Positions 53,153 to 57,430 of a stretch of DNA of 64,000 nt are shown here, piece after piece. A model generated the notes under the pieces. That model ran no database searches and had not been told where the DNA came from. It saw only the letters and a list, made by a program, of their open reading frames with translations. Within the stretch, counting starts at the first letter, position 1. The number at the start of each line of letters is the position of its first letter. Source of the DNA: Modestobacter altitudinis. Its GTDB lineage: Bacteria; Actinomycetota; Actinomycetes; Mycobacteriales; Geodermatophilaceae. The stretch is from NCBI RefSeq assembly GCF_005930475.1, contig NZ_SJEW01000006.1, forward strand, positions 48,639 through 112,638, written 5' to 3'. A program made the translations under genes and the position numbers.

Positions 53153-54898
53153 TCAGCGCAGCCGGCGGGTGTTGTCCGGCAGCCGGACGGTGATGCCGCG
53201 GGCGTCCAGCCACTCGGCCAGCGGGACGGCGACCCGGCGGCTGGTCCCCCACGCCTGCCGCGCCTGGCTGAGCGTGAACGGCTGCGGCAGCGTCGTCAGC
53301 CGGGCGCGCGCCACCTCGGCCACGCCGGGAGCCAGGTAGACGCCGTCGGTGATCCGCACCAGCTGCTCGGCGCGCACCGCGGCGGCCAGCTCGCGCGTCC
53401 CCAGCCCGGCGGCGACGAGGTCACCCGCCTCCGGCGCGGCGAACGGCTGCTCGGCCAGCCGGGCGCGGATCCCGTCCACCGCCCGCTGCACCTCCGGCGG
53501 CAGCCCGGGGTCCGCGGCGACCACCCGCCCCTCGCGCAGCTCCAGCGGCGCCCGGACGACGGCGGGCACCAGCTCGACGTCGGGCAGCTCGAGCGCCGAC
53601 CGCAGCACCGCCACCGGCGGCCCGGGCTCCAGCGGGCGCAGCTGCCGGTACCGGGCCACCACCTGCGGCACGCGGGCCGCGAGCTCGTCGGCGAGGCCCG
53701 GCGCGATGAGCCAGGGCCCGACCGTCGTCGCCCCGGCCGGCACCGGCCACCCCATGGCGACGAAGTCGGCACGCCGGACCCAGCGGCGCCGGGCCAGGTC
53801 GGCTGCCGCGCCCTCGGCACCGGGCGGCTGCTCGGCGAGCTCGGCGGCACGTGACCGGGCCGCCCCCCGCCGACGCAGCTCCGGCGGGTCGACGTCCCGC
53901 ACGTCCGCGCCCAGCACCCGACGCGCCCCGGGATCACGCAGCAGGAGCCGGTCACCGACCCGCAGCGGCAGCTCGTGCGCGAGCCGGAGCCGCACCGCCG
54001 TCCCGTCCAGCGGCCGCACCCGCGCGCCCACCGTCGCCGAGCCGATGTGGACGACGGCCTCGGCCGGCAGCGTCCCCTCGACCGGTGCGACCAGGGTGAC
54101 GTCGAGGTCGGCGGTGCGGCGGAACGCGTCCGGGGTCAGCAGCGCGTCGCCGCGGGAGATCTCCTCCACCGCGACGCCGCGCAGGTTCAGCGCCACCCGG
54201 GCGGTGGCCGCCGCCGTCTCCACCGGCGCACCCAGCGACTGCAGCCCGCGGACGGTCACCAGCCGGCCGCCCAGGTCCAGCCGGTCCCCCGCCGTCACGG
54301 TGCCGGCCGCCAGCGTGCCGGTGACGACCGTCCCGGCGCCGCGGATGGTGAAGGCCCGGTCGACCCACAGCCGCACCGGCGCGGCCGGGTCGGGTGCGGG
54401 CAGCCCCGCCAGCACCTGCTCCAACGCGGCCGACAGCTCGGGCAGCCCGGCGCCGGTGCGGGCACTGACCGCCACGGCGGGGACCTGACCCAGCGAGGTG
54501 CCGGCCAGCCGCTCCCGCGCGTCGGCGAGCACCGGACCGGCGTCGGCGAGGTCGGCCTTGGTGACCGCGAGCAGCCCGGCCCGGACGCCCAGGGCGTCCA
54601 GCACCGCGACGTGCTCGGCGGTCTGCGCCGACCACCCGTCGTCGGCCGCGACGACCACCAGCGCGGTCGGCACCGAGCCGACGCCGGCCAGCATGTTGCC
54701 GATGAAGCGCTCGTGGCCGGGGACGTCGACGACGGCCACCCGCCGGCCCGAGGGCAGCGTCGTCCAGGCGAACCCCAGGTCGATGGTGAGGCCGCGGCGG
54801 CGCTCCTCCTCCCACCGGTCGGGTTCCATCCCGGTCAACGCCGTCACCAGCGTGGACTTGCCGTGGTCGACGTGGCCGGCGGTGGCGATCACGTCCAC
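53153..54898 (-). CDS. selB: Selenocysteine-specific elongation factor
   Basis: 581 residues, GTG start. GTPase motifs GHVDHGKST, DVPGHERFIGN and TKADLADAG; EF-Tu-like domains 2 and 3; then winged-helix domains (about 390-581) that in other SelB proteins bind the SECIS hairpin. It brings Sec-tRNA to the ribosome at the recoded codon. Overlaps the selA 3' end by 10 bp. In this genome its tRNA has a CUA anticodon, so it should act at UAG codons. Confidence 0.94.
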   Translation of the reverse strand: MDVIATAGHVDHGKSTLVTALTGMEPDRWEEERRRGLTIDLGFAWTTLPSGRRVAVVDVPGHERFIGNMLAGVGSVPTALVVVAADDGWSAQTAEHVAVLDALGVRAGLLAVTKADLADAGPVLADARERLAGTSLGQVPAVAVSARTGAGLPELSAALEQVLAGLPAPDPAAPVRLWVDRAFTIRGAGTVVTGTLAAGTVTAGDRLDLGGRLVTVRGLQSLGAPVETAAATARVALNLRGVAVEEISRGDALLTPDAFRRTADLDVTLVAPVEGTLPAEAVVHIGSATVGARVRPLDGTAVRLRLAHELPLRVGDRLLLRDPGARRVLGADVRDVDPPELRRRGAARSRAAELAEQPPGAEGAAADLARRRWVRRADFVAMGWPVPAGATTVGPWLIAPGLADELAARVPQVVARYRQLRPLEPGPPVAVLRSALELPDVELVPAVVRAPLELREGRVVAADPGLPPEVQRAVDGIRARLAEQPFAAPEAGDLVAAGLGTRELAAAVRAEQLVRITDGVYLAPGVAEVARARLTTLPQPFTLSQARQAWGTSRRVAVPLAEWLDARGITVRLPDNTRRLR

Positions 54899-56205
54899 CG
54901 GCGGGCCACCTCCTCGACCGCGGCGACCAGCGCCTCGTCGTCGGCCGGTGCCAGGCTGCGCAGGTCCAGCAGCGTGCGGTCCCCGTCGACGTACCCGACC
55001 ACCGGCCGGGCCCCGAGCCGCAGCGGCTCGGCGAAGCGGACGTCGAGCGCCACCGCGGCGCTGGGCAGCTGGAACTCCGGCGCCCCGCCGCCACCGACCC
55101 GCGCGGTCGAGTCGACCGCCACGGCGGGCACCCCGGCCGCCTGGAGTGCGGCGGCGACCGATGCGGCCCGGGCACGCAGCCCCGCCGGGTCGGCGTCGAG
55201 CATCTGCCGGACCGGGGGCAGCGGCCCCCGCAACGTCGCCTCCAGCGCGGCCAGGGTCGTCTTGTCCACCCGCAGCGCGCGGTACAGCGGATGCCGGCGG
55301 AGACGCTGGACGAGGTCGGCCCGGCCCAGCACGATGCCGGCCTGCGGTCCGCCGAGCAGCTTGTCCCCGCTGCACAGCGCGAGGTCGGCGCCGGCGGCCA
55401 GGGTGGTCTGCAGGTCCGGCTCGTCGGGCAGCAGCGGGTGCGGGCGCAGCAGGCCGCTGCCCACGTCGGCGACCAGCGGCACCCCGGTCCCGGCCAGCGC
55501 CGGGGCGAGCTCGGCGACCTCGACGGCCCGGGTGAAGCCGCGGACGACGAAGTTCGACGGGTGCACCTTGAGCACCGCGCCGGTGTCCGGACCGAGGGCG
55601 GCGGTGTAGTCGGCGACGGAGACCCGGTTCGTCGTCCCCACCTCGCGCAGCCGCGCGCCGGTGCTGGCCAGCAGGTCGGGGATCCGGAACCCGTCGCCGA
55701 TCTCGACCAGCTCGCCGCGGGCCAGCACGAGCTCGCGGCCCTGGCCGAGCGCGGTGGCGACCAACGCCAGCGCGGCGGCGCAGTTGTTGACCACCAGGGC
55801 GGCCTCGGCCGCCGGGACCGCGGCCAGCAGCGCGGTCAGCGCGCCCTCCCCGCGCGGGCCACGCCGTCCGGTGCCCAGGTCCAGCTCCACGTCGGTGGTG
55901 CCGGCGGCGGCGACCACGGCCTCGACCGCGGCGACTGACAGCGGCGCCCGGCCCAGGTTGGTGTGCACCAGCACGCCGGTGGCGTTGAGCACCGGGCGCA
56001 GGCTGCTCGCGGTGCCCGGCAGGGCGGCCAGCACCGCCGGGACGACGTCGCCGGCGGGCAGCTCGCCGTCCCGGACCCGCTGCTGGGCGGCCTGCACGGC
56101 GGTCCTCACCAGGTCGCGGCCCAGCCGGTCGACCGCGGCCGCCACCAGCGGCTCGGCCAGCACGGCATCGGTGCGCGGAACCGAGCGGCGGGGGTCTCCG
56201 GTCAT
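54889..56205 (-). CDS. selA: L-seryl-tRNA(Sec) selenium transferase
   Basis: 438 residues, ATG start. PLP enzyme with Lys in LCSGDKLLGGPQAG, plus NATGVLVHTNLGRAPLS, GTTNRVSVADY and KVHPSNFVVRGF, all strong SelA signatures. It converts Ser-tRNA(Sec) to Sec-tRNA(Sec) using selenophosphate from SelD. Located 62 bp after the tRNA-Sec gene on the same strand, with a 15-bp hairpin between them. Confidence 0.95.
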   Translation of the reverse strand: MTGDPRRSVPRTDAVLAEPLVAAAVDRLGRDLVRTAVQAAQQRVRDGELPAGDVVPAVLAALPGTASSLRPVLNATGVLVHTNLGRAPLSVAAVEAVVAAAGTTDVELDLGTGRRGPRGEGALTALLAAVPAAEAALVVNNCAAALALVATALGQGRELVLARGELVEIGDGFRIPDLLASTGARLREVGTTNRVSVADYTAALGPDTGAVLKVHPSNFVVRGFTRAVEVAELAPALAGTGVPLVADVGSGLLRPHPLLPDEPDLQTTLAAGADLALCSGDKLLGGPQAGIVLGRADLVQRLRRHPLYRALRVDKTTLAALEATLRGPLPPVRQMLDADPAGLRARAASVAAALQAAGVPAVAVDSTARVGGGGAPEFQLPSAAVALDVRFAEPLRLGARPVVGYVDGDRTLLDLRSLAPADDEALVAAVEEVARRWT

Positions 56206-56266: not shown

Positions 56267-56362
56267 TGGCGGAGGCGGACGGGAATCGAACCCGCCTGAC
56301 CGAGCTGCTCGGTCACGTCGGCTTTAGAGGCCGCGGGGGCCACCAGACACCCTGACGCCTCC
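56267..56362 (-). tRNA. selC: tRNA-Sec with CUA anticodon (reads UAG)
   Basis: 96 nt including encoded CCA. Acceptor GGAGGCG/CGCCTCC followed by G-CCA; a long variable arm with an 8-bp stem (TGACCGAG/CTCGGTCA); T arm GCGGG-TTCGATT-CCCGT. The anticodon stem CGGC/GCCG carries loop CTCTAAA, giving anticodon CTA (complement of 56325-56327). Size, long arm, G73 and the place between selA and selD identify tRNA-Sec; the normal bacterial anticodon is UCA. UAG-reading tRNA-Sec has, to my knowledge, been reported in Geodermatophilaceae, which supports both reading and host family. Confidence 0.92.
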
Positions 56363-56422: not shown

Positions 56423-57430
56423 GTGACCGCTCTCGCCCCGCCCGTCCGGCTCACCCAGTTCGCCCACGGCGGCGGCTGCGCCTGCAAGATCCCACCGGGT
56501 GAGCTGGAGGCGGTCGTCGCCGGCCTGACCCACTCCGGCCCGGTCGACCCGGCGGCCGAGCTGGTCGTCGGGCTGGACGACGGTGACGACGCCGCGGTGG
56601 TGCGCCTCGCCGGCGGTCAGGGCCTGGTGCTCACCACCGACTTCTTCACCCCGGTCGTCGACGACGCGTTCACCTTCGGCCGGATCGCCGCGGCCAACGC
56701 CCTGTCCGACGTCTACGCCATGGGCGGCACCCCGGTCGTGGCGGTGAACCTGCTCGGCTGGCCGCGCGACGTGCTGCCGATGGAGCTGGCCGCCGAGGTG
56801 CTCCGCGGCGGGCTCGAGGTGGCCCAGGCCGCCGGCTGCCACGTCGGTGGCGGGCACTCGATCGACTCCCCGGAGCCCACCTACGGGATGGCCGTCACCG
56901 GGCTGGTCGACCCCGAGCGGCTGATCCGCAACGACGCGGCGACCGCCGGCACCCCGATCTCGCTGACCAAGGCGCTCGGCGTCGGGACGCTGAACAACCG
57001 GATGAAGGCCACCGGCGAGGTGTCGGCTGAGGCGGTGGACTCGATGAGCCGGCTGAACGCGGCGGCGTCGGTGGCCGCCGTCGCCGCGGGCGTGCGGGCC
57101 GGGACCGACGTCACCGGCTTCGGCCTGCTCGGGCACCTCTACAAGATGGCCCGTGCCAGCGGGGTGACCGCGGTCGTGGAGGCCGCCGCGGTGCCCTACC
57201 TGGCCGGCGCACGGCAGTCCGCCGCCGACGGCTACGTCTCCGGCGGCACCCGCCGCAACCTGGCCTGGGTCACGCCGTTCACCGACCTGTCCGCCGTCGA
57301 CGAGGTGGAGGCGCTGCTGCTGGCCGACGCGCAGACCTCCGGTGGGCTGCTGCTCGGTGGCGAGGTCCCCGGCGCCCCGGTGATCGGGGAGTTCGTCGCC
57401 GAGCAGGAGTTCGCCGTCGTCGTCCGCTGA
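56423..57430 (+). CDS. selD: Selenophosphate synthetase
   Basis: 335 residues, GTG start. Active-site segment AHGGGCACKIP has Cys (not Sec) with the essential Lys, then LTTDFFTPVVDDAFTFGRIAAANALSDVYAMGG and GGGHSIDSPEPTYGMAVTG. It makes selenophosphate from selenide and ATP. Divergent from tRNA-Sec with only 60 bp between, so promoters are probably shared or back to back. Confidence 0.96.
   Translation: MTALAPPVRLTQFAHGGGCACKIPPGELEAVVAGLTHSGPVDPAAELVVGLDDGDDAAVVRLAGGQGLVLTTDFFTPVVDDAFTFGRIAAANALSDVYAMGGTPVVAVNLLGWPRDVLPMELAAEVLRGGLEVAQAAGCHVGGGHSIDSPEPTYGMAVTGLVDPERLIRNDAATAGTPISLTKALGVGTLNNRMKATGEVSAEAVDSMSRLNAAASVAAVAAGVRAGTDVTGFGLLGHLYKMARASGVTAVVEAAAVPYLAGARQSAADGYVSGGTRRNLAWVTPFTDLSAVDEVEALLLADAQTSGGLLLGGEVPGAPVIGEFVAEQEFAVVVR

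Follow-up and report, generated by a model that had tools for sequence, protein, structure and literature searches.

The window analysed here, a stretch of 64,000 nucleotides from Modestobacter altitudinis, carries a selenocysteine (Sec) tRNA gene with the anticodon CUA, accompanied by three other sel genes:

56267 to 56362, minus strand: selC, tRNA-Sec with anticodon CUA, G73 and encoded CCA (ARAGORN; Rfam RF01852; structure)
56325 to 56327, minus strand: anticodon CUA within the loop CUCUAAA (sequence, ARAGORN, Rfam alignment)
54889 to 56205, minus strand: selA, selenocysteine synthase (translation; Pfam PF03841 and PF12390)
53153 to 54898, minus strand: selB, Sec-specific elongation factor (translation; Pfam GTP_EFTU, Beta-barrel_SelB and SelB-wing_3)
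56423 to 57430, plus strand: selD, selenophosphate synthetase (translation; Pfam AIRS and AIRS_C)

ARAGORN located a tRNA at 56267-56362 on the minus strand, with the anticodon cta, and labelled it tRNA-Pyl. The Rfam tRNA-Sec model RF01852 matched positions 56271-56362 of the same strand with 66.9 bits (gathering score 47; E-value 1.8e-11), and the match covered the whole model (positions 1-91 of 91). The gene is 96 nt long, with a variable arm of five pairs and a tail reading GCCA (G73 then CCA). Of the 30 pairs in the Rfam structure, 5 are non-standard. Folded freely, the selC strand alone gave a stable structure (z -3.0) other than the cloverleaf. The anticodon UCA of the canonical bacterial tRNA-Sec was looked for in the loop CUCUAAA and was absent; CUA stands in its place and marks the variant off. 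Four other RF01852 matches in the genome were all identified as tRNA-Ser or tRNA-Leu by ARAGORN; one of them, a candidate second tRNA-Sec at C33:357-444 (48.7 bits, above the cut-off), turned out to be a tRNA-Ser with the anticodon TGA. selC is the only tRNA-Sec detected in the genome. The preliminary description of this DNA had given the tRNA the same limits, G73 and encoded CCA, had placed it between selA and selD and had read its anticodon as CUA rather than UCA. The first of these claims agrees with ARAGORN, Rfam and the sequence, the second with the Pfam domains of the neighbours, and the third with ARAGORN and the full-length RF01852 alignment.

The selA gene lies downstream of selC after a gap of 61 nt, and the start of selB overlaps the end of selA. 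selD is divergent from selC and lies on the side opposite to selA and selB; the active-site region of its product (GGCACK) carries a Cys.

Across the family Geodermatophilaceae, tRNA-Sec was present in 108 of 112 genomes, the four genomes devoid of it being 72-82% complete. The 110 loci in these 108 genomes comprised 103 with CUA and seven with UCA. The anticodon arm occurred in two forms only, CGGCCTCTAAAGCCG and CGGTCTTCAAAACCG, which differ also in one stem pair adjoining the loop, and all 103 CUA loci share one form. The seven UCA loci belong to genera g6, g7 and g8, whose membership in the family is taken from the genome set's own family code, and come from drafts comprising 190 to 550 contigs. 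Three of them (L044, L049 and L050, genus g6) showed no match to selA, selB or selD near the tRNA-Sec on its contig, in contrast to the remaining UCA loci. Of 80 named SelA loci, 54 had a tRNA with UCA and two had one with CUA, both from Geodermatophilaceae; the 24 loci with no visible tRNA-Sec were left out of the anticodon count. Wherever a tRNA-Sec was seen at the selA loci of actinobacteria outside the family, its anticodon was UCA.

A tree of SelA grouped the 12 CUA rows with L055, whose cut-off tRNA also has CUA, in one clade with a support of 100/100. The tree did not join the UCA genera to this clade, its deep forks are weak (74/35), and it does not establish these genera as sister groups of the CUA clade.

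A target for the CUA tRNA was found in the same genome on another contig, where a formate dehydrogenase (FDH) gene spans G000:C33:58325-61606. After 254 open codons, the frame reaches a TAG at G000:C33:58871-58873, and another 910 open codons follow. The Sec site of FDH, which we take from the E. coli enzyme to be NQARI-U-HSST, corresponds here to NQARI-TAG-HSST, and the alignment with TGA-containing copies puts the TAG at the Sec position. A SECIS-like hairpin, GGTCCCC-GGTCT-GGGGACC, begins 11 nt after the TAG (z -2.5 against shuffled sequences); its loop GGUCU resembles that of E. coli fdhF. Both features had been proposed as a check in the preliminary description, and the outcome is in line with its view of UAG as the Sec codon, as are the family copies of FDH presented below.

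Further targets were searched for in this genome with a covariance model of the hairpin, scoring 150 of 25780 first-look candidates. Among 16 matches, FDH had an E-value of 7.5e-7 and the others 0.26 or worse; since the model includes this FDH site, only the gap to the remaining matches is informative. Eight of the 16 start with TAG, FDH among them, and none of the other seven had coding-type composition on both sides. No UGSC gene was found in the genome, and its eight AhpC-TSA rows contained no internal stop. From these sequence searches, FDH is the only convincing candidate for a UAG-Sec gene found in this genome among the 150 candidates scored; others may be missed, including peroxiredoxin-like genes, whose sites do not fit the hairpin model.

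The Sec codon follows the anticodon across genomes. FDH was detected in 101 of the 112 family genomes, and 118 of 130 FDH rows, from 98 genomes, reach the Sec residue (the other 12 stop short of it); all 118 have TAG there. One row (G029) lists TGA beside TAG, and its residues 1-1084 show only TAG. No FDH was found in the nine genomes of genera g6 to g8 at an E-value of 1e-60. Among 22 named genomes, 19 possess FDH, 17 of them outside the family and two inside. The 17 outside, all actinobacterial, have TGA in each of their 19 Sec-spanning copies, and the two family members have TAG in all four of theirs. Both FDH copies of G080 (L109 and L110) lack about 23 residues including the Sec codon and the hairpin, a gap which may be a real loss or an assembly dropout at the GC-rich hairpin.

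Other protein families gave the same picture. Of 95 UGSC rows in 54 genomes, 72 contain one TAG, 23 no stop and none a TGA. In 20 genomes searched for AhpC-TSA, TAG occurred in three rows from two CUA genomes and TGA in one row of the UCA genome G071, which is a deiodinase-like gene. The deiodinase-like family PF00837 likewise comprised three TAG rows in two CUA genomes (loci L142, L143 and L145) and the TGA row of G071 (L144/L128). The L142 protein (TAG) shares 45% identity with the L144 protein (TGA) across 192 residues, and both genes have AGCGCC-GGTCC-GGCGCT at equal distance from the Sec codon, with the same hairpin in L143. The TGA deiodinase-like case is weaker than the FDH series, as the draft genome G071 is 4% contaminated. 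The frames P0003 and P0004, each with one TGA and located near the sel genes of UCA genomes, look like chance frames.

Several additional genes were observed in the course of these searches. In L135, L136 and L140 (from G062, G104 and G111), a UGSC domain with an in-frame TAG forms the C-terminal end of a thioredoxin-reductase-like flavoprotein; these fusions are about 470-490 residues long in a single frame, with Pfam applied to L140 only. Peroxiredoxin-like genes with an in-frame TAG (FGGY-TAG-RTE and GDW-TAG-PYCC) were seen in L129, L130 and L131 (from G111 and G022), with hairpins that depart from the register described below. A possible deiodinase-like TGA site, GSFT-TGA-PYC, lies at the selA locus of Haloechinothrix aidingensis (L186:7559-7594, minus strand) and was recognised by motif pattern only.

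Out of 42 sites, the sequence 3' of the TAG was compared at 15 from FDH, UGSC and deiodinase-like genes, omitting near copies, the TGA sites L128 and L186 and the misfits L129, L130 and L145. These sites align gap-free as TAG, 11 nt, a 7-bp stem and a 5-nt loop. Pairing was found in 94.3% of the 105 cells, against 36-47% in slid controls, and both sides changed in 7 of 7 pairs. FDH of the UGA-using actinobacteria forms 6 or 7 of the 7 pairs in the identical register at 19 of 19 sites. The misfits to this register are two peroxiredoxin-like sites (L129 and L130) and one deiodinase-like site (L145), and the TGA hairpin of L128 was as stable as its shuffles (z -0.39).

UAG still functions as a stop. 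A crude caller found 26 frames in the window, 23 ending in TGA, three in TAG and none in TAA, which fits the earlier remark that UGA is the commonest stop there. The adaptive motive given in the preliminary description, that Sec at UAG clashes less with this frequent stop, is a guess. The reading frames of L142, L143 and L130 continue past the Sec TAG and terminate at a second TAG. Since UAG also terminates some of the UAG-Sec genes, there is no global reassignment, and we infer that the meaning of UAG depends on its context, namely the hairpin.

Taken with the observed anticodon, the TAG in FDH, the covarying hairpin and the codon-anticodon match, selC is in all likelihood (probability about 0.95) a tRNA-Sec gene with the anticodon CUA which, together with the SelA, SelB and SelD encoded alongside, is predicted to insert Sec at UAG codons with a SECIS hairpin after them, in replacement of UGA. 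Charging of the CUA tRNA with Sec would fall to SerRS and SelA, the usual route for a bacterial tRNA-Sec. SelB would bind and deliver the Sec-tRNA to a ribosome positioned at UAG, followed by 11 nt and a 7-bp stem with a 5-nt loop of the GGUCU type. A UAG devoid of the hairpin would still end translation via RF1.

Three other explanations were weighed against this prediction. The label given by ARAGORN, which is based on the CTA anticodon, would make selC a pyrrolysine tRNA and UAG a pyrrolysine codon. The chance of this is negligible: selC matches the full-length tRNA-Sec model with 66.9 bits, selA, selB and selD adjoin it, the Sec site of FDH holds TAG, and ARAGORN itself calls near-identical UCA relatives tRNA-SeC. 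Moreover, selC with its five-pair arm and full tRNA-Sec match does not conform to the tRNA-Pyl fold, which has a short variable arm. Reading of UAG as selenocysteine everywhere in the organism, with no need for a hairpin, would agree with UAG being less frequent than UGA as a stop in the window (3 of 26 frames); it is very improbable in view of the second TAG that ends the frames of L142, L143 and L130, the covarying hairpins after TAG at FDH, UGSC and deiodinase-like sites, and the retention of selB. Equally hard to credit is the idea that the sel cassette is a functionless relic in this genome. A single convincing target gene was found here, as a relic would lead one to expect, but this gene, FDH, agrees with the anticodon, the sel frames are open, and the anticodon arm has one form across 103 CUA loci.

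The distribution of TAG among FDH genes was followed on a tree of 37 of the 57 rows. TAG copies stand at five places among TGA copies, so that five changes are needed (bootstrap range 5-5), and the starred branches force at least four; the 57-row tree likewise gave five, with four forced. Constraining the TAG copies to one clade was rejected (p 5.3e-46; 15 rows against 22). The odd TAG copies adjoin TGA copies of Pseudonocardia terrae in one case, those of Paractinoplanes and a Nocardioidaceae MAG in another, and a TGA group containing Streptomyces and Pseudonocardia in a further one. These five places indicate that separate FDH lineages were recoded, and TGA to TAG is the likely direction, as TGA is found in all 17 FDH-bearing genomes outside the family. 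Transfer into the CUA clade or the rewriting of each of several old paralogs would either suffice as an explanation, and the patchy occurrence appears to favour transfer.

The codon preceding the Sec codon differs as well. After omission of repeated sequences and of pieces with fewer than 200 codons after the site, 34 distinct TAG copies of FDH all have ATA at this place (34 of 34), a codon that accounts for 23 of the 1270 Ile codons at other positions of the same genes. In 27 TGA copies, the preceding codon is ATT in 24, GTT in two and TTT in one, ATT being used for 49 of 1000 Ile codons elsewhere. A pattern search retrieved the ATA-TAG word 118 times, as often as there are FDH copies reaching the Sec residue, from 98 of the 112 family genomes, and the reversed control pattern had no match in the 112 genomes. 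The word is extended identically to ATA-TAG-CAC at all 118 places. The 28 UGSC copies have an Asp codon ahead of TAG, GAT in 18 of them and GAC in 10, with GAT used for 11 of 317 Asp codons elsewhere. P-values on the excess of a preceding codon treat related copies as independent and should not be relied upon; the tree offers four independent pairs, which agree in direction but are too few for significance (p 0.125).

The AUA that precedes UAG in FDH probably belongs to the recoding context and would work from the ribosomal P site to counter the release factor. A broader proposal, whose odds we judge a little short of even, is that the Sec signal of FDH consists of a word of two codons, which reads AUU-UGA in bacteria with UCA and AUA-UAG in those with CUA. 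Both codons would be rewritten together whenever FDH enters or persists in the CUA clade, with the hairpin kept, as the P-site codon would help the Sec tRNA to outcompete the release factor, at present RF1 and formerly RF2. Instead, recombination over very short tracts, with a resident copy as donor, could have carried the word from one FDH gene to another, with no selection at the P site. The uniformity of ATA-TAG-CAC at 118 places, in copies spanning several FDH lineages, speaks for such a spread, which we nevertheless consider rather unlikely. The synonymous letters flanking the Sec site keep the state of each FDH lineage (CGT before ATA in L115, for example), so that the word does not stem from recombination over a long tract; one long gene-conversion tract was not seen in these letters, and recombination would demand a very short one. 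UGSC is likewise enriched in a rare codon before TAG, and FDH of the UGA bacteria has its own rare codon at that place. The two-codon proposal, if correct, would make the codon before Sec an overlooked part of the signal.

The family can be regarded as a natural experiment, in that it contains both UCA and CUA genera and its FDH lineages have been rewritten on no fewer than four occasions. It illustrates that the Sec codon can change while the hairpin and the enzymes persist. For annotation, ordinary gene finding halts at TAG and UAG-Sec genes would thus be cut short. ARAGORN labelled the CUA tRNA-Sec of the window as tRNA-Pyl and did so again at 12 of the 20 further loci of the family that were scanned; this label can seed false pyrrolysine annotations. 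According to the accessible part of PMC3639795, Geodermatophilus obscurus figures in a list of candidate users of pyrrolysine, where a footnote addresses its anticodon, perhaps by the same confusion.

UAG-Sec itself is already published for Geodermatophilaceae. The accessible text of PMC5330540 describes the CUA tRNA-Sec in three genomes of the family, credits Mukai et al. (2016) with the discovery and with FDH and UGSC as selenoproteins, and adds AhpC in Blastococcus saxobsidens; the report of a UAG-reading tRNA-Sec in this family, mentioned in the preliminary description, is therefore real. Excerpts of PMC8124441 mention UAG or Cys codons, with anticodon variants, as used by some bacteria, and those of PMC10778597 Cys and other sense codons; the portions available from PMC7609411 and PMC13188914 hold nothing further on UAG-Sec. 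In titles and the beginnings of abstracts, no repeated FDH recoding, no UCA genera in Geodermatophilaceae and no ATA context were found, and Mukai et al. (2016) may hold such content.

Three known systems can be compared with the one described here. The UAG-Sec system of Mukai et al. (2016), as far as its account is accessible, is alike in the CUA anticodon, in the family and in UAG at the Sec sites of FDH and UGSC. The UCA genera, the several FDH recodings, the ATA-TAG word, the deiodinase-like UAG genes and the UGSC-reductase fusion go beyond that accessible account. tRNA-Pyl has in common with selC a CUA tRNA at an amber codon and the name given by ARAGORN, and differs from it in tRNA family, partner proteins and target genes. 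The canonical system of Streptomyces and Mycobacterium, with a UCA tRNA-Sec reading UGA, shares the tRNA family, the sel genes and the register and spacing of the FDH hairpin, whereas here CUA replaces UCA, TAG replaces TGA, and ATA replaces ATT before the Sec codon of FDH.
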